Assembly: GCA_902633855.1 (NCBI GenBank)
Contig: CACPHU010000012.1
Coordinates: 1-33,718, forward strand
Length of the DNA: 33,718 nt
Direction of reading: 5' to 3'
Origin: an uncultured OCS116 cluster bacterium
Lineage (GTDB): Bacteria; Pseudomonadota; Alphaproteobacteria; Rhizobiales; TMED25
The position numbers and the translations under genes were made by a program. Shown here piece after piece: positions 14,758-32,004 of the stretch (positions within the stretch are counted from its first letter, which is position 1; each line of letters opens with the position of its first letter). The notes under the pieces are model-generated. The model was not told the DNA's origin. It saw only the letters and a list, made by a program, of their open reading frames with translations, and made no database searches.

Positions 14758-16188
14758 ATGAATCTCTTAATATTTACACCAGTTTTACCGGAAATAGCCA
14801 TAACGATTGCATCAATGTTTCTATTAATAATTGGTGTATTCAAAAAAAATGAAAAAACTTATACAACAATTTCTAATTTGGCAATTTTTAGCCTATTAGC
14901 GGTTTTATTTTTAATATTTTCAGGCAGTGTTCCGAAAGGAATTAGTTTTGGGGGCTCATTAATTACAGACTCTTTCTCTTTATATTTGAAAACATTAATA
15001 CTTATATCTTCAATAATAATATTAGTTGTATCAAACATTTATCTGAGAAATATTAATCTACTTAAGTTTGAATATATTATTTTAATCTTACTTTCAGTTG
15101 TTGGAATGATGATTATGGTTTCATCCAATGATCTTATTTCGCTTTACTTATCTATAGAACTACAAAGCCTGCCTCTCTATGTTTTAGCATCAATCCGTAA
15201 TAAATCATCAAAATCAACTGAGTCTGGATTAAAATATTTTGTTCTTGGTGCTCTCTCTTCATGCATACTACTGTATGGTTTATCTCTTATATATGGGTAT
15301 ACGGGATCAATATATTATAATGAGATTGCATCAAATTTATCAGAATATGATGTTGGTATTTTAATTGGCGTTGCTTTCACTCTTGCTGGTTTTGCATTTA
15401 AAATTTCGGCAGTCCCTTTTCATATGTGGACGCCCGATGTTTATGAAGGCTCACCAACAACAGTTACCGCTTTCTTCGCTGTTGCTCCAAAGATTGCAGC
15501 TCTTGGTCTAATTGTCAGAATATTAATTACAGCTATGCCAACCTTGATAGAGGATTGGCAGTCAATACTTATTTTACTATCTATATTTTCTATGTTACTG
15601 GGTGCATTTTCTGCAATTGGACAGCGTAACCTAAAACGACTATTGGCTTACTCATCTATTAGCCATATGGGTTTTGCATTGATGGGTGTGATTAATGGCT
15701 CTTTTGATGGTGTGAGAAGCCTATCTCTCTATATGCTAATTTATCTTGTGATGTCACTTGCTCTGTTTATATCAATCATTGCGCTCAAAAATAATGATGA
15801 ACATATTGAGAATATCGAAGATATTTCGGGGCTTGCAAAAATAAATCCTGTTATGGCTTTAATAATATCCATCCTTCTCTTCTCATTAGCAGGCATACCG
15901 CCATTAGCTGGGTTTTTTGCCAAGTTTTATGTTTTGTATGCGGCGATCGATGCAAAACTTTATTATCTTGCAATATTTGGTGTTTTATCAAGTGTCATAA
16001 GTGCATTTTATTACCTTAGAATTATCAAGGTAATGTATTTTGAAGAGTCTGCAAATTCATTTGATCCGATATCAAAGAGATTAAAGACTATTATCTATTT
16101 GCTGACAGCAATCACACTCTTATTCTTTCTAAGACCTTCAATCTTTATAAATTTCGCAGGCACTGCATCTGCCTCTTTATTTATATGA
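14758..16188 (+). CDS. nuoN: NADH-quinone oxidoreductase subunit N
   Basis: A 476-residue antiporter-like membrane subunit and the last of the complete 14-gene set. Visible blocks are the acidic helix YLSIELQSLPLYVLASI, the lysine helix FKISAVPFHMWTPDVYEGSPT and the ISHMGFALMG segment after KRLLAYSS. The stop overlaps the start of birA by four bases, so complex I and biotin ligase are translationally linked. Confidence 0.96.
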   Translation: MNLLIFTPVLPEIAITIASMFLLIIGVFKKNEKTYTTISNLAIFSLLAVLFLIFSGSVPKGISFGGSLITDSFSLYLKTLILISSIIILVVSNIYLRNINLLKFEYIILILLSVVGMMIMVSSNDLISLYLSIELQSLPLYVLASIRNKSSKSTESGLKYFVLGALSSCILLYGLSLIYGYTGSIYYNEIASNLSEYDVGILIGVAFTLAGFAFKISAVPFHMWTPDVYEGSPTTVTAFFAVAPKIAALGLIVRILITAMPTLIEDWQSILILLSIFSMLLGAFSAIGQRNLKRLLAYSSISHMGFALMGVINGSFDGVRSLSLYMLIYLVMSLALFISIIALKNNDEHIENIEDISGLAKINPVMALIISILLFSLAGIPPLAGFFAKFYVLYAAIDAKLYYLAIFGVLSSVISAFYYLRIIKVMYFEESANSFDPISKRLKTIIYLLTAITLLFFLRPSIFINFAGTASASLFI

Positions 16189-16922
16189 TGACCTCATGGC
16201 CCCCAAATAAATTATTAATTAAGCGATTAAGTTCAGTTAATTCAACCAATGAAACTGCTATCAATCTTCTCAAGAATAAGGAATATTTCAATTGGATTAT
16301 TGCCGATCAACAAATAGATGGGCGTGGTAGACGAGGAAATATTTGGTCTTCTCCAATGGGCGGACTGTATGCGACCACAGTTATTAGTGATGCTAAATTA
16401 GATTATTCACATGTTAGTCAGTTAAGTATATTAAGTGCAGTAGTAGCAGCCAAAACTATAGAGGATATAATTGGGAAAAATAAAATACAGTTGAAGTGGC
16501 CTAACGATGTATTCTTAGATGAAAAAAAGCTCTGCGGAATCTTATTGGAGTCCGTTTTCATTGAAGATAAATTTTATTTGATTGTGGGCTTTGGTATAAA
16601 TGTTAGATATACCCATGATAAGAATGAAGCATTTTTTTCATACTTACAGGAGGTTCAAAAGAATGTTACTGTTGAAGAGTGCTTAAATAAATTAATTATA
16701 AATTTTAATAAAATGATAAATATATGGAATTATGGTGAATCATTCACGCATTTCAAGGATTATTGGTTAATGTTAACGCGTGATCACGGTAGAGTTATAA
16801 AAGCAAAGAAAAAAAATATTACGATCGAAGGTGTATTCGAAAACATTGATGATAAAGGAAACTTGATCCTTAGGGTTGGAAGTAAGAAAGAAATTATTGA
16901 TACTGGAGAAATATTTAGTTAG
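16185..16922 (+). CDS. birA: Biotin--[acetyl-CoA-carboxylase] ligase, class I without DNA-binding domain
   Basis: A 245-residue cytosolic enzyme that makes biotinyl-5'-AMP and attaches biotin to carboxylase carrier domains. The ATP/biotin loop GRGRRGNIWSSPMGGLY begins at residue 46, and LKWPNDVFLDEKKLCGILLE (near 100-120) is the second signature. The small C-terminal SH3-like domain is present at the end. No N-terminal helix-turn-helix is present, so it should not act as the biotin repressor. A second in-frame ATG at 16188 is equally possible. The position behind nuoN is typical of alphaproteobacteria. Many of those also have a pantothenate kinase gene (coaX) next, which is absent here. Confidence 0.93.
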   Translation: MMTSWPPNKLLIKRLSSVNSTNETAINLLKNKEYFNWIIADQQIDGRGRRGNIWSSPMGGLYATTVISDAKLDYSHVSQLSILSAVVAAKTIEDIIGKNKIQLKWPNDVFLDEKKLCGILLESVFIEDKFYLIVGFGINVRYTHDKNEAFFSYLQEVQKNVTVEECLNKLIINFNKMINIWNYGESFTHFKDYWLMLTRDHGRVIKAKKKNITIEGVFENIDDKGNLILRVGSKKEIIDTGEIFS

Positions 16923-24023: not shown

Positions 24024-24905
24024 ATGACTTATATACGAATATTGTTATTTCTGACTCTAACTTTTCAAGTTATTCTGCCAACTGATGGCATATCAAAAAC
24101 ATATACCACCGATAATGGCAAGCTTGCATTAAGTGCGCCAAAGCATTCTGGTTTCAAAACTCATACCAACTATATGGGTCAAAATTCATATAATTATGAA
24201 TACATTAAAGATGGATCAGCGGCTCGCAGGGGAGAATTTTACCAAAGATTTGAACTAAAGGATGGAGATTGTTTTGGAGATGATGGCTGGAATGATTGCG
24301 AAAATGATCGCGAACGAGTCGAATTTTCATCAAGACCCGCACAAAAACCAAGCGGCACACAGTGCTTTGCCTATAGTATTAAATTAGATAAAGATTTTAT
24401 TGATCTCCACCCAACAAACACAGACCTAGGTCAAGTCCATCAAAAGGGTGGCCCTAAAGGGACTGCAGGTGGGTTAAAATCATTTCCGCCTTTAATTCAA
24501 ATAGGAGCAAAAAGGGGCAGATTAATTTTTGGCTGGCATGAGCTGTCAGGTTCATCTGATAATGTAATTGATAAAAAAAGAGAATATCCGCTTATTAAGC
24601 TCAAGCATATGAAAGGGAAATGGACTGATATCTCTTTTTGCTTAGATTACGAGAATAAGAGAATGGATGTATGGTTAAATGGAACAAAGGTGCATGTAAT
24701 AAATAAATCACCTATAAATTTCATGCCAGAGTCAACCTACTTTAAATACGGCATTTATAGAAGTTTTATTAGTCGTTACCAAAAAGAAATAGGGGAAGGG
24801 GCAAAACTACCTACGCAAATTGTATATTATGATGAGATTAGACGCGGTAACTCAATAAATGAAGTTGATTTCAATATTAATCCTGATTTAATACCAGTCG
24901 ACTAG
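24024..24905 (+). CDS. Secreted polysaccharide lyase, heparin lyase I-like
   Basis: A 293-residue exported protein. Residues 1-24 form a signal peptide (hydrophobic core ILLFLTLTFQVILP). The mature domain looks like the jelly-roll polysaccharide lyase family annotated as heparin lyase I-like (Pfam Polysacc_lyase). Supporting segments are RRGEFYQRFELKDGDC, DRERVEFSSRP, the W-x-D strand KGKWTDISFCLDY, and the C-terminal YFKYGIYRSFISRY and TQIVYYDEIRRG blocks. By family knowledge it would cleave an acidic glycan by beta-elimination; the substrate is unknown. The conserved Tyr and His positions are plausible but I cannot assign the catalytic pair. There is no Shine-Dalgarno. It starts a plus-strand run of secreted and membrane genes. 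Confidence 0.72.
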   Translation: MTYIRILLFLTLTFQVILPTDGISKTYTTDNGKLALSAPKHSGFKTHTNYMGQNSYNYEYIKDGSAARRGEFYQRFELKDGDCFGDDGWNDCENDRERVEFSSRPAQKPSGTQCFAYSIKLDKDFIDLHPTNTDLGQVHQKGGPKGTAGGLKSFPPLIQIGAKRGRLIFGWHELSGSSDNVIDKKREYPLIKLKHMKGKWTDISFCLDYENKRMDVWLNGTKVHVINKSPINFMPESTYFKYGIYRSFISRYQKEIGEGAKLPTQIVYYDEIRRGNSINEVDFNINPDLIPVD

Positions 24906-24968: not shown

Positions 24969-25844
24969 ATGGGGATTAATCATCAATTGAAAGCAAGCTA
25001 TATGTGCTATAAATATTTGCCAATAACAATTTTCTTAGTTCTTTTTTTTAGTGGGCCTGCAATTTCAGATTGCCCTGATATACCTGATATAAAAATCGCG
25101 GATAGTTTCGGTGTGAAGATATGCGCCATGCCTGATGTGGATCAAAAATATCTTGAGCATGCAAAGAAAGTTATGGCTGGTCTCATTGATTATAATGATG
25201 ATGGTATAGTTGATAATCAACCAGCAATAGATAGGGTTATATCAACTGGAAGTGTGTTTGCGGTATTTCGTAACGGCAGGGGTGAACGCAAATTCGCAGA
25301 TGTTTTTTGGTCAGAGGAAGTGTACGATGAATTTATGCCAATATTTGACGCGCAAGGGTGGGATTGTGAGAGAGATGATGAAGACAAATGTATGCATGCC
25401 GTCGAAAGTAAGTATGGAACTTTTTTGGCTGTTTTCACAAATGAGATGAATTTAAGTGGTAGTGGTTGGGATCCAACCATTGAAGAAGGTCTGCATCTTA
25501 TCACTCATATGGGCTATGCCCAAGCGTATCCTGATATTTTTGGTCAAAATAAGGACTCGCACATTGCAAAATTGATGGATATCGCCCGTGGCGGATACTT
25601 TGAAAAGGCGAAAAGAAAGTATCCTCATGGCGCGTACTACACCTATGACGATCGAAGTTGTACTTATTCCTGTCAGGTTACCGAGTTTACCTACTGGGCA
25701 ATTACTTCTCTGCGTGGTCAGCAAGAGGGCAGGGCTAGAGAAATAAGAGAAGAATGGAAACTGACTGACCCAGAAAAAATGCATGATACAGCCCCTGATT
25801 TGGTAGAGCTGCTATCAAATAAGAAATATGGTATCTATTATTAG
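24969..25844 (+). CDS. Secreted disulfide-rich protein of unknown function with a calcium-loop motif
   Basis: A 291-residue protein not assigned to a named family. The signal peptide is about residues 14-33 (cleavage near AIS-DC). If translation starts at the second ATG (25002, Met12) the signal has a more usual length, and neither ATG has a clear ribosome site. The mature part has six cysteines (35, 52, 133, 141, 231, 235), which suggests three disulfides. Residues 74-82, DYNDDGIVD, fit the DxNxDGxxD calcium loop of EF-hand/dockerin type. Residues 172-180, EEGLHLITH, place acidic residues and two histidines on one helix, a possible metal site but not HExxH. It sits between a lyase and an acyltransferase gene, so an extracellular or periplasmic role seems likely. 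Confidence 0.65.
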   Translation: MGINHQLKASYMCYKYLPITIFLVLFFSGPAISDCPDIPDIKIADSFGVKICAMPDVDQKYLEHAKKVMAGLIDYNDDGIVDNQPAIDRVISTGSVFAVFRNGRGERKFADVFWSEEVYDEFMPIFDAQGWDCERDDEDKCMHAVESKYGTFLAVFTNEMNLSGSGWDPTIEEGLHLITHMGYAQAYPDIFGQNKDSHIAKLMDIARGGYFEKAKRKYPHGAYYTYDDRSCTYSCQVTEFTYWAITSLRGQQEGRAREIREEWKLTDPEKMHDTAPDLVELLSNKKYGIYY

Positions 25845-28632: not shown

Positions 28633-28935
28633 TTATATAACTACAGAATATTCAACAAGGTGGGGTGGACCAAGGTATAAATCAGAATGTTTTCCGGCAT
28701 CTTTGTGGGCTAGCCGAAATGACTCGGAGTGCACCCAATTATAAAATGACTCTTGGCTATCCCAGGTACTATGTGACGCATACATTGTATGGTCAGAATG
28801 GGTGTGACCCTTAATTAAATGAAAATCTAAGAAACCAGGAACACCTTCAAGATGGCTGTCACGGTTTCTCCAAACCTCTTCAAATTCTTCTTCACGACCT
28901 ATTTTGATCTTAAAATTATTCATAACTATATGCAT
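28633..28935 (-). CDS. IsdG/HmoB-like antibiotic biosynthesis monooxygenase-domain protein
   Basis: A 100-residue ABM-fold protein (ferredoxin-like dimer). The residues equivalent to the Asn-Trp-His catalytic triad of IsdG-type heme oxygenases appear as N7, W67 (FYNWVHS) and H77 (FRLAHKDAG). The family core EEEFEEVWRNRDSHLEGVPGFLDFHLIKG is clear. Heme degradation to release iron is therefore a good hypothesis, although many ABM proteins do other oxidations. The frame opens earlier, at 29040, inside the upstream gene. GAGG five bases before the ATG at 28935 and the family N-terminus decide the start. It follows the deacetylase-like gene by 70 bases and precedes the photolyase-like gene by 11. 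Confidence 0.82.
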   Translation of the reverse strand: MHIVMNNFKIKIGREEEFEEVWRNRDSHLEGVPGFLDFHLIKGHTHSDHTMYASHSTWDSQESFYNWVHSESFRLAHKDAGKHSDLYLGPPHLVEYSVVI

Positions 28936-29005
28936 AATATCCTCAATTGTTATAGTATATATATGCACCAACCTTAAACTTGCAACCCGCTTGCATTTTG
29001 ATAGA

Positions 29006-29920
29006 TCATGCCTTGGAAGTAAATATTTGGGCAGCTGCATGGAAAATTAGGGTATGCCTTTCAGCGAGTTCAATATTATCAGTCGAATATCCACCACCAA
29101 TGACGGTTGCAATTGGTATGTCTTTGCTCTTAAAAAAATTGAGCACCTCTAAGTCCCTCTCAAGTATGCATTTACTGCTAATGTTTAATCGACCTAATTT
29201 ATCATTTTCATGGACGTCCACGCCAGCATCATACAATACCAGATCTGGCTCGATATTTTTAATGCATGTAGCGAGGGCAAATTTAATTTTTTCAAGGTAA
29301 TTTTCATCAGAAATTTTATCATCTAGGCCAATATCTAAATCACTTTTTGCTTTTAGACTTGGAAAATTATTTGAGGCATGGACAGAGCAGGTAAAAATAT
29401 TTGTTTCATTTTTACAAATTTCAGCAGTCCCATCTCCTTGGTGAACATCACAATCAATAATTAAGACTTTTTTGCATTTACCATCAGAAATTATATTTTT
29501 AGCAGCATACGCCAAATCATTGTAAACACAGAAACCTGAACCATAATTTGCGTGAGCGTGATGTGTGCCGCCCGCAAGGTGGCAAGCAATACCATTAATG
29601 AGTGCTAGTTTTGCGGCAAGATAAGTTCCATTAACCGCTAAGTATGAGCGCTTTGATAAGGTTTCTGACCAGGGAAGGCCGAGTATTTTTTCCTCTTTGT
29701 TAGATAAATTTCCATTCTTTATCTTACTAATGTAATCACGTGTATGCACTTCTGTAAGCTGGCTATCTTCTGCTGCATTTGGTACAAAGACTTCAGCAGA
29801 TTTTGCTAACTCTGAGTCAATTAAAAGAGTATATAAGTCACCAAATTTAGATGATGAGAATCTATGATTTTTTGGTAAAGGGATGTCGTAATCCTTATGA
29901 AAGATCCATGGTATTTTCAT
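29006..29920 (-). CDS. Histone deacetylase family amidohydrolase
   Basis: A 304-residue zinc-dependent deacetylase of the bacterial HDAC/acetylpolyamine amidohydrolase superfamily. The active-site pair is H120/H121 (GGTHHAHANYGSGFCVYND). The zinc ligands are D158 and H160 (DCDVHQGDGT) and D240 (HENDKLG). The transition-state tyrosine is Y278 (GGGYSTD). All key residues are present, so it should be active on an acetylated amine such as a polyamine, small amide or protein lysine; the substrate is not readable. It is probably the first gene of a minus-strand group with the monooxygenase and photolyase-like genes. No clear Shine-Dalgarno. Confidence 0.88.
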   Translation of the reverse strand: MKIPWIFHKDYDIPLPKNHRFSSSKFGDLYTLLIDSELAKSAEVFVPNAAEDSQLTEVHTRDYISKIKNGNLSNKEEKILGLPWSETLSKRSYLAVNGTYLAAKLALINGIACHLAGGTHHAHANYGSGFCVYNDLAYAAKNIISDGKCKKVLIIDCDVHQGDGTAEICKNETNIFTCSVHASNNFPSLKAKSDLDIGLDDKISDENYLEKIKFALATCIKNIEPDLVLYDAGVDVHENDKLGRLNISSKCILERDLEVLNFFKSKDIPIATVIGGGYSTDNIELAERHTLIFHAAAQIFTSKA

Positions 29921-30087: not shown

Positions 30088-32004
30088 ATGAAACTCATAC
30101 GTTTTCATGATGTTCTCAGAGATGGTATTCAATCATTGATGGGTACAAATCCATCTGCGGATGAGATAATTCAAGCATATCCAACTGCTCATCAAACAAA
30201 TTGTGATATGGTGCAAACAGCAGGTGGAACCTTTTTTGACCTATTTGCAAAAAAGGGTCGTGATGAGTGGGCTGAGGTTGAAAAGATTATTACCCACTTT
30301 AGTAAGCATAATGTAAAGCAATCGGCGCTAGTAAGAGGAGATTTTCTATTCGGTTATGAACCATATTCATATGACGTGGTAGAAGGAGTTATTCTAGAAT
30401 TTGCAAAAATGGGAATAAATGTTTTCCATAACTTTCATGGTATGAATGACCATATACCTCTCATTGGTGTGTGTGAGGCCGTAAAAAAAGCACAAGAAAA
30501 GGGTTATAATGTGATAGCGAATGGGACTATCTGCATTGAAGATAACCCTAATATAACTATTTCTAATTGTCTGAAATTTGCAAAAAAGTTAGTGGATCTT
30601 GGACATGAGGGCTTTTATTTAAAATCTGCAAGTGGAAGATTGAATCCCGAATTCGTATATATGTTAACATCGCAATTAATAAATAGGTTTCCTGATCAGG
30701 AAATTACTATTCATGCACACTCCACATATGGAGAGGCGCCCGCTTGTTATATCTCCGCAATTCTTGCAGCGTTATTAAATAACAAACCTATAACAATTGA
30801 TGTTCAGCATCCCGCACTTTCAGGCTCTACTGCGCAACCTAGTATGACAAAAATGGCAGAGCTAGTAGCTAACTACCCAGATCCAAGTGTAAATATCCAT
30901 GCGCCAGAGTTAAATAAGAAAGCAATCAAGGACAGTCTAGAGTCACTTTTAAGATTAAGATTCCGTTACAGGGAATACGAAACTGCATATGATAAGCCAC
31001 TCTTGGATACAATGTATGAGGCGAGGGTACCGGGCGGTGCATCTTCTACGCTTAAATCGATACCGGGTCTTGTCGATAACCTCGCTAGAATTCTAGAACT
31101 TGAAAATGAGTCAGATAAATGGGAAAAAATACAATCTCATATATATAAACAACAGAGAAAAATACTGAAGGACTTAGGTGAACCGACTCAAGTAACTCCA
31201 TATGCTGCAAATACTACAGGGCAGGCTGCAATATCTCTATGGAATGTTTTAGAGGGTAGAGATCCATACTCAACATTGTATCCTGGAATAATAAATTACT
31301 TGAGTGGAATGCATGGGATGGTTCCAGATACTGTGAATAAGGAGCTGGTATCTAAAGCGCTCGATCAGAAAGGGTTTAAAAAAGTTGTTGAATATCAAAG
31401 CTCAACAAAGAGGGCAAATATGTTAAAAAAAGCTGAGAGTGACCTGATTGACGCGGGTATTGCGTGCCCCACAACACGCCAGAAGCTCTCGTACCTTCTG
31501 CTTGGAGATATCGATCATATTTTGGCAGTCCATAATGGGGATAACAAGCCGCAAACTCCACCGGATCTCCCATTCTATGCATCTGAGCCAGTTTCATTAG
31601 AAAAAAAGAAATTATCTTCAGATGGAAAAACTTATTTGTTTGATATAAGAGATGCCATAACATCTATTGGTGGCATACCAGTTCTTCAAGAAATTGCAGA
31701 GAGAACCTTACATTTAAAACAATTAAATGATGGCCACTATATTTTTCCTGATAGTTACAGTGATTTAGGAAAAATTTGGTTTGATATTAATATGAAGAAG
31801 CTCACGAAAATAATTGATTCTATTGAACAAAATATGATTAATAGTGGCTTTAACTCATTGCAGGTTGAGAGCTTTACAAAACAGCAGGGACATTTAACAA
31901 TTTTTGAATGTATCAGAGAGGTGCTTAATAATAGAGGTGAAGGTTTATTTGAATATTTCTATGAACTGTATGAAGAGAAAATAGTTACTGGTAAGGCTGA
32001 GTAA
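30088..32004 (+). CDS. Carboxyltransferase-like protein related to pyruvate carboxylase subunit B / OadA, without biotin domain
   Basis: A 638-residue protein. Residues 1-290 form an HMGL-like TIM barrel and about 300-500 a PYC/OADA-like domain. Compared from memory with Rhizobium etli pyruvate carboxylase, the metal and pyruvate residues are kept: R11, D12 and Q15 (LRDGIQS), R83 (LVRGDFLFGY), the carboxylated-lysine position K179 (YLKSASG), and H209/H211 (IHAHSTYG). The catalytic-Thr motif PGGQYTN reads PGGASST here, giving Ser320. The usual FDALND loop is FHGMND. No biotinyl Met-Lys-Met motif occurs at the C-terminus, and no biotin carboxylase or carrier gene is adjacent. The enzyme may use a carrier encoded elsewhere, or catalyse a non-biotin reaction. 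It lies upstream of urtA but probably on its own transcript. Confidence 0.78.
   Translation: MKLIRFHDVLRDGIQSLMGTNPSADEIIQAYPTAHQTNCDMVQTAGGTFFDLFAKKGRDEWAEVEKIITHFSKHNVKQSALVRGDFLFGYEPYSYDVVEGVILEFAKMGINVFHNFHGMNDHIPLIGVCEAVKKAQEKGYNVIANGTICIEDNPNITISNCLKFAKKLVDLGHEGFYLKSASGRLNPEFVYMLTSQLINRFPDQEITIHAHSTYGEAPACYISAILAALLNNKPITIDVQHPALSGSTAQPSMTKMAELVANYPDPSVNIHAPELNKKAIKDSLESLLRLRFRYREYETAYDKPLLDTMYEARVPGGASSTLKSIPGLVDNLARILELENESDKWEKIQSHIYKQQRKILKDLGEPTQVTPYAANTTGQAAISLWNVLEGRDPYSTLYPGIINYLSGMHGMVPDTVNKELVSKALDQKGFKKVVEYQSSTKRANMLKKAESDLIDAGIACPTTRQKLSYLLLGDIDHILAVHNGDNKPQTPPDLPFYASEPVSLEKKKLSSDGKTYLFDIRDAITSIGGIPVLQEIAERTLHLKQLNDGHYIFPDSYSDLGKIWFDINMKKLTKIIDSIEQNMINSGFNSLQVESFTKQQGHLTIFECIREVLNNRGEGLFEYFYELYEEKIVTGKAE

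Follow-up and report, generated by a model that had tools for sequence, protein, structure and literature searches.

The carboxyltransferase (CT) domain is the textbook case of biotin-dependent carboxyl transfer. Transcarboxylase 5S, one of its forms, has no biotinyl domain, the biotin being carried by 1.3S; the DRE-TIM lyases and synthases carry out metal-assisted enolate chemistry without biotin. In pyruvate carboxylase (PC) of Lactococcus lactis, the metal is surrounded by Arg533, Asp534, carboxylysine 703, His732 and His734, pyruvate is bound by Arg606, a mobile residue that moves over to Asn609 in the empty site, and the hydroxyl of Thr867 contacts both pyruvate and biotin (PMC9581989). 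In the Rhizobium etli enzyme, the Thr882Ala substitution and the removal of the biotinyl domain each abolish biotin-dependent oxaloacetate decarboxylation (PMC5895798). Here we analyze a relative of these enzymes encoded by a 33,718-nt stretch of DNA (the window) from an uncultured OCS116 cluster bacterium; the window is one whole contig (CACPHU010000012.1) of a 1.17-Mb genome that is 73% complete (the home genome, G000), and the host clade is presumably marine. The open reading frame (ORF) at 30088-32004 encodes a 638-residue protein, hereafter the orphan, which lacks most of the marks of biotin-dependent CTs and keeps their pyruvate and metal pocket. We propose, with a probability of roughly 0.5, that the orphan may be a stand-alone, biotin-independent and metal-dependent enzyme for pyruvate/oxaloacetate-type enolates, i.e. 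a lyase, an aldolase or a decarboxylase.

Among proteins of known structure, the orphan comes nearest in sequence to transcarboxylase 5S, OadA, PycB and PC, the best single-sequence match in the PDB being 5S (1s3h, 1rqb; E 3.6e-25). The orphan scores above the cut-off of the broad domain family PYC_OADA (Pfam PF02436; 30.9 bits for a cut-off of 27), its match to HMGL-like is sub-threshold, and it has the barrel with the RD..Q and HxH metal site of the DRE-TIM metallolyase superfamily in the broad sense. With OadA/PycB (TIGR01108, NF006761) it shares the CT barrel and funnel, the R-D-x-x-Q, GG...FD and RG....GY motifs, the carboxylysine Lys and HxH. By contrast, it falls far short of the equivalog level: its best NCBIfam match, oadA (TIGR01108), reaches 158.2 bits for a cut-off of 756.5, and it further differs from OadA/PycB by the absence of a biotinyl domain, by Asp117His, Asp180Ser, Asn86Phe and His14Ile, by a loop insert and by the lack of any biotin carboxylase partner that we could find. 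When the oadA profile was run against 120 genomes of the phylum, 61 had a match that was counted as passing the cut-off (745.7-971 bits); full-length PYC-type proteins scored 436.8-484.8 bits, one CT with a separate carrier 385 bits and three partial pieces 99-343 bits.

The orphans lie apart from OadA/PycB, from pyruvate carboxylase and from the acetophenone-type CTs found on plasmids. In a first tree, 10 orphan orthologues were separated by a 100/100 branch from 27 OadA/PycB, nine PYC and one separate-carrier CT (L161 was dropped, the longest ORF not being the CT). The same separation, again at 100/100, was obtained in a second tree of 44 rows that also held 18 OadA/PycB (13 of the 27 plus five from plasmids), nine PYC and seven separate-carrier CTs, L169 having been dropped because the chosen ORF was not the CT. 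Both trees are unrooted and the orphan branch is long, so that the claim is limited to the orphans not lying inside any sampled CT group. In the structural comparison, the barrel of the predicted orphan model, itself weak, matched PycB, OadA, 5S and PC with VIA Z of 19.1-22.8, the highest being PycB (5ks8; 22.8 over 307 residues at 4.0 A); DmpG (18.5), HMG-CoA lyase (18.2) and homocitrate synthase (17.8) ranked lower.

We then aligned the 10 orphan orthologues with 27 OadA/PycB and seven PYC sequences (five loci, L019, L104, L107, L112 and L119, were dropped, their longest ORF not being the CT). R11, D12, Q15, R83, K179, H209 and H211, which the first-pass annotation had named as metal and substrate residues, are present in 10/10 orphans; these columns are fixed in all the OadA/PycB and PYC sequences as well, save that 11 of the 27 OadA/PycB have Gln in place of H209. 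With the L. lactis residues matched to the orphan by motif, a divalent metal would be held by D12, H209, H211 and (carboxylated) K179, while R11, Q15 and R83 would bind a small 2-oxo acid such as pyruvate or oxaloacetate; a C-C bond at C3 could then be made or broken via the enolate, in an aldol/retro-aldol reaction or an oxaloacetate-type decarboxylation.

Other positions have changed across the family. Among 78 columns invariant in the 27 OadA/PycB and seven PYC, 35 are kept in all 10 orphans (R11, D12, Q15, D51, R83, Y90, K179 and H211 among them) and 25 are replaced by another, equally fixed residue, including H14I, E43Q, N86F, D117H, D180S and M181A. Phe86 corresponds by motif to Asn609 of L. 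lactis PC, the partner of the mobile Arg606. A set of 34 more diverse CTs, some of which probably no longer act on pyruvate, leaves 14 invariant columns: the orphans keep 11 and change three, namely an Asp to His117, another Asp to Ser180, and a Gln to Ile, Lys or Leu at position 335. Both Asp are invariant in 34/34 of these CTs, and His117 and Ser180 in 10/10 orphans. The earlier observation of FHGMND (residues 116-121) in place of FDALND was thus well made, its Asp-to-His change being diagnostic; the replacement of KDMAG by KSASG had gone unnoticed.

The acetophenone-type plasmid CTs display the opposite pattern. Like the orphan, these HpeB/XccC-type phosphophenylethanone CTs, a label given by operon content rather than by direct sequence comparison with HpeB/XccC, have a divergent barrel and no biotinyl domain. 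Their pyruvate pocket is partly lost: the equivalent of R83 is changed in 3/8 rows, that of K179 in 3/8, and Y90 has become Phe or Trp in 7/8 (the eight rows include L169, later dropped). Both Asp, however, are kept in 7/7. Since the acetophenone-type enzymes changed parts of the pocket and kept both Asp, and the orphans did the reverse, the two Asp would seem to be tied to biotin-dependent carboxyl transfer and not to the use of pyruvate. Ser180 is unusual under any reading, because Asp at this place on strand 6 (xDTxG/KDxxG) is a superfamily feature: it was found in 34/34 CTs and in the three HMGL-like paralogues inspected (LeuA and a further HMGL-like enzyme from the home genome, and CimA from G001), and is Ser in 10/10 orphans. 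LeuA and CimA both pass their NCBIfam cut-offs; the incomplete home genome has three HMGL matches, none of them CimA.

The loop bearing the catalytic Thr of PC, which lies there in PGGQ[FY]TN, reads VPGGASSTLKSIPGLVDNLAR in the orphan, and its alignment is ambiguous. In the profile alignment to PYC, the Thr column falls on Ser320 (Ala in 1/10 orphans); in the OadA/PycB and joint alignments, an insert of about 10 residues shifts it to position 330 (Asp in six, Glu in three and Gly in one of the 10), which adjoins Asn331, invariant in the orphans. The first-pass annotation had taken a Ser in place of the Thr as an altered catalytic position. This does not hold: the column is Ser in 10/27 OadA/PycB and Thr in 17/27, so that Ser is ordinary there and is not evidence for altered catalysis in the orphan. 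As far as the alignments tell, it is the loop as a whole that is altered.

The orphan has no detectable biotinyl domain, as had been proposed: Pfam searched to E 10 yields only PYC_OADA and HMGL-like, and a pattern search finds no biotin-lysine motif. The place of the OadA/PycB association and biotinyl domains is occupied by a C-terminal helical region, conserved in the orphan family, which measures 167 residues after the PYC_OADA match (ending at residue 471) and not the 140 first reported. This region gave no recognizable relative: a PDB profile search of the C-terminal part had a best E of 0.51, and a fold search with residues 430-638 alone found no Foldseek match at E 0.001 and a best VIA Z of 6.8, which is within the chance range. 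A match to PanM (E 0.041 with the whole protein, 0.0072 with the region alone) was discarded, as it scores 16.2 bits for a cut-off of 68 and is missing from the orthologue of G405.

That the orphan is without biotin machinery, another early claim, goes too far. None of the biotin carboxylase or biotinyl/lipoyl matches in the home genome is on the contig of the orphan; a gene for biotin protein ligase is nonetheless present in the window (16185-16922), and the genome encodes AccC beside AccB, both above their NCBIfam cut-offs. Of the 12 genomes with an orphan gene, seven of which are 93-99% complete, every one gave exactly one biotin carboxylase match, and no second one was found in 15 genomes, the home genome and 14 related ones (family controls 13/14). 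Apart from that of G013, the 14 carboxylase loci all have the AccB motif EAMK[TV] beside them (13/14). As for carriers, the home genome has three biotinyl/lipoyl matches, one AccB and two of lipoyl type. In all, 70 such matches were collected, and the 30 loci inspected at the motif comprised six of AccB type, 23 of lipoyl type and one without a pattern match; five lipoyl loci, partly the same genes, were also inspected at the motif, and the remaining matches were judged by ORF length only. With that one locus set apart, no second biotinyl protein was found among the matches inspected at the motif.

A candidate carrier that we rejected is a 79-residue protein whose motif, ETDKTT, is of lipoyl type and whose gene adjoins E1 alpha and E1 beta genes. 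In OCS116 genomes, this stand-alone lipoyl-domain protein (79 residues in L083) follows the E1 alpha and E1 beta genes of a pyruvate dehydrogenase/acetoin dehydrogenase-like complex (L083 7131-9352, on G000:C2, and L084-L087). It also occurs in G008 (L086), a genome without the orphan, and in none of the inspected loci does an E2 acyltransferase gene come next.

Some other CTs have their partners at hand. For the acetophenone-type plasmid CTs, a biotin carboxylase gene and a carrier-type gene are adjacent in 6/6 annotated loci (the carrier-type gene of L170 is labelled only 'acetyl-CoA carboxylase'), and a carrier gene likewise adjoins the short OadA of Monoglobus. The L166 operon comprises a phosphoenolpyruvate (PEP)-using enzyme, a PEP/pyruvate-binding protein, a carrier, a carboxylase, a CT and a HAD hydrolase; its set of genes matches that of the Hpe pathway (PMC9618137), with the carboxylase and CT genes in swapped order. 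Note that two acetophenone-type CTs (L167 3046-4524 and L170 3043-4527) are annotated 'biotin carboxyl carrier protein', and alignment identifies them as CT subunits without a biotinyl domain. The orphan has no adjacent carboxylase or carrier gene and does not group with these enzymes in the tree. Transcarboxylase 5S, about 20-22% identical to the orphan in structure alignments, differs by keeping FDAMND and KDMA.

The orphan gene is a real ORF under purifying selection. The ORF and coordinates first given were correct: there are no internal stops, and the start Met is present in the 10 aligned orthologues, that of G405 having four extra residues at the start. The ratio of non-synonymous to synonymous substitution rates (dN/dS) is 0.081 and 0.068 for the two pairs with dS below 1; three further pairs gave 0.034-0.093 at dS of 2.5-2.8, which is near saturation, and dS was not estimable in three others. 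The proportion of non-synonymous differences (pN) is lower in the first 435 codons (0.016-0.265) than in the rest (0.108-0.449), in 8/8 comparisons. A promoter scan returned 11 candidates for 11.0 expected.

As far as Pseudomonadota have been sampled, the family is rare and, one outlier aside, confined to a single clade. Orthologues are present in 11 of the 14 genomes of the host family (G000-G013), the copy of G010 being split across two contigs. There is no match in G004 (90% complete) or G008 (95% complete), and in G012 (97% complete) an in-frame internal deletion has fused residues 1-32 to the last part of the protein, leaving an 87-residue ORF (L081 9529-9792) between leuA and tRNA-Lys, the same flanks as the full-length gene of G013 (L078). 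The outlier, G405 (94% complete, 6% contamination), belongs to another alphaproteobacterial family and its orthologue is 54% identical. In overlapping samples, whose counts cannot be added, the gene was found in 11/397 genomes of the order, all of the host family (E 1e-25), in 2/385 of the class, the home genome and G405 (E 1e-40), in 1/398 of the phylum, the home genome (E 1e-40), and in 1/96 relatives of G405, G405 itself (E 1e-30). Plasmid records gave 61 matches, all below 60% identity, the highest being 28.1% among the 20 of 61 listed. Titles and abstract openings on OCS116 anaplerosis or urea, on PYC_OADA with HMGL-like, and on biotin-independent CTs name no such enzyme.

The same genomes show an apparent gap in anaplerosis. 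PEP carboxylase was found in 0/15 genomes (controls 7/14), and isocitrate lyase in 0/14 family genomes (controls 8/14), G405 having one; with at most one biotin carboxylase per genome, no pyruvate carboxylase was seen in the 15 genomes either. The family is thus without detected PEP carboxylase, pyruvate carboxylase or glyoxylate shunt, malic enzyme and PEP carboxykinase lying outside the search.

How, then, should the orphan be read? The first-pass annotation had set it outside the ordinary biotin-dependent subunits, and this part of its interpretation is borne out: the orphan is set apart from the PycB/OadA clade at 100/100 in both trees, and the home and 14 related genomes showed no biotin carboxylase other than that of AccC type and, among the biotinyl/lipoyl matches inspected at the motif and with one locus set apart, no carrier other than AccB. 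Its residue argument was half wrong, the Ser being ordinary and FHGMND diagnostic. An ordinary PycB/OadA subunit whose partners lie elsewhere or were missed would explain why oadA is the best NCBIfam match, and lone short OadA subunits do exist; given the profile score, the tree, the lone carboxylase, the missing biotinyl domain and the change of both clade-wide Asp, this reading is already contradicted and we consider it highly improbable. The gap in anaplerosis lends weight to a different proposal, an oxaloacetate source being missing on paper: AccC would load the biotin of AccB, and the orphan would pass the carboxyl group on to pyruvate to give oxaloacetate. The pyruvate and metal residues are kept and both AccB and AccC are present, as this pyruvate CT borrowing from acetyl-CoA carboxylase would demand, and a CT would then have turned anaplerotic enzyme of a streamlined marine clade, one carrier serving two unrelated acceptor enzymes. 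His117, Ser180, Phe86 and the changed Thr loop speak against it, as do G004, G008 and G012, all at least 90% complete, which lack the gene and show no PEP carboxylase, isocitrate lyase or second biotin carboxylase in its stead; we regard both the borrowing and its anaplerotic consequence as unlikely. An acceptor other than pyruvate, as in the HpeB/XccC acetophenone carboxylases, has a precedent for such a substrate change in CTs without a biotinyl domain (PMC9618137), yet the precedent lost parts of the pyruvate pocket and kept both Asp and an adjacent carboxylase and carrier, the reverse of the orphan, which makes this reading equally unlikely. Finally, the loss of two otherwise invariant Asp and the large conserved C-terminal helical region could betray a catalytically dead CT serving as a binding or regulatory protein; the invariance of the metal and substrate residues in 10/10 orthologues and the slower change of the first 435 codons in 8/8 comparisons make this quite unlikely.

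We therefore favor the stand-alone enzyme: with the biotin arm, the dedicated partners and two acidic residues gone, its chemistry probably differs from that of CTs. The barrel (VIA Z 17.8-18.5) and RDGxQ motif would fit the DRE-TIM lyases and synthases (HMG-CoA lyase, DmpG aldolase, isopropylmalate and citramalate synthases), from which it is distinguished by the CT Lys179, by the funnel and by the absence of their strand-6 Asp. Several observations weigh against this preference. The last difference is itself one of them: Ser180 replaces an Asp that LeuA, CimA and the third HMGL-like enzyme also carry, so that ordinary lyase chemistry is not assured. D51 and Y90 are kept, which we take to be the counterparts of D590 and Y628 in the biotin pocket of R. 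etli PC. On a plasmid of Ilyobacter polytropus, a short OadA (L176 7971-9353, 460 residues) keeps both Asp and is by its length without a biotinyl domain, and no carrier, carboxylase or sodium-pump subunit gene is annotated within 8 kb of it in an incomplete gene table; a lone CT gene is therefore not unique to the orphan family and is by itself no proof of biotin independence. No gene neighbor is common to all orphan loci, so that a 2-oxo acid substrate finds no confirmation in the gene context. The AlphaFold2 model behind the structural matches, built on seven alignment rows, is of low confidence (mean predicted local distance difference test score 61.6, predicted template modelling score 0.49).

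Table 1. Features of the orphan protein and of its loci (window positions unless a locus is named).
Feature	Position	Strand	Basis
Orphan CT-like protein, ORF of 638 residues	30088..32004	+	Open reading frame, orthologues, dN/dS
CT TIM barrel, about residues 1-297; kept R11, D12, Q15, D51, R83, Y90, K179, H209, H211; changed I14, Q43, F86, H117, S180, A181	30088..30978	+	Alignments, structure match
FHGMND, residues 116-121, for FD[ASC][ML]N[DW]-type in other CTs; Asp is His in 10/10	30433..30450	+	Alignment
KSASG, residues 179-183, for KDMAG/KDMSG/KDASG; Lys kept, Asp is Ser in 10/10	30622..30636	+	Alignment
RVPGGASSTLKSIPGLVDN loop, residues 313-331; about 10 residues inserted in this family at the place of the catalytic Thr/Ser of CTs	31024..31080	+	Alignment, ambiguous in the loop
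Funnel region, PYC_OADA match, residues 328-471	31069..31500	+	Pfam PF02436
C-terminal helical region, residues 472-638; conserved in the orphan family, no recognized domain	31501..32001	+	Pfam, PDB profile, fold and library searches
Glyoxalase-superfamily genes	L079 10547-11068, L027 7461-7922, L028 7455-7916		

Some neighbors do recur. A histone-deacetylase-like gene is adjacent or one gene away in seven loci (G000, G001, G002, G003, G005, G009 and G010), and in G007, G011 and G003 a small glyoxalase-superfamily gene adjoins the orphan gene in the same orientation, upstream in the first two and downstream in the third; the other orphan loci inspected showed none. In G013, the orphan ends a run interpreted from sequence as ilvB-ilvH-ilvC-leuA, an amino-acid context that fits 2-oxo acid chemistry, albeit at one locus and its deleted twin in G012. 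In G405, it follows an MTHFR-like gene, a gene for a RACo-type protein and, beyond a DNA-methylase-like gene, one for a corrinoid methyltransferase. A link to urea uptake was rejected: urtA follows the orphan gene in three loci (the window, G006 and G009) and not in the others inspected. Neither a defence gene (no PADLOC match at E 0.01) nor a phage gene is a tenable identity, PHROGs giving only two matches of unknown function (19 and 15 bits) and viral contigs no relative among 78 candidate stretches. Elsewhere in the window, an HmuQ-type heme-degrading protein (28633-29040; 137.3 bits for a cut-off of 130) is encoded beside the histone-deacetylase-like and photolyase genes, and a 291-residue ORF (24969-25844) without any Pfam family at E 1e-5 lies beside a polysaccharide-lyase-like gene (24024-24905).

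The orphan lineage amounts to a natural experiment on which CT residues serve pyruvate and which serve biotin, and the reaction of the orphan bears on how the tricarboxylic acid cycle is refilled in a clade without detected PEP carboxylase, pyruvate carboxylase or isocitrate lyase.

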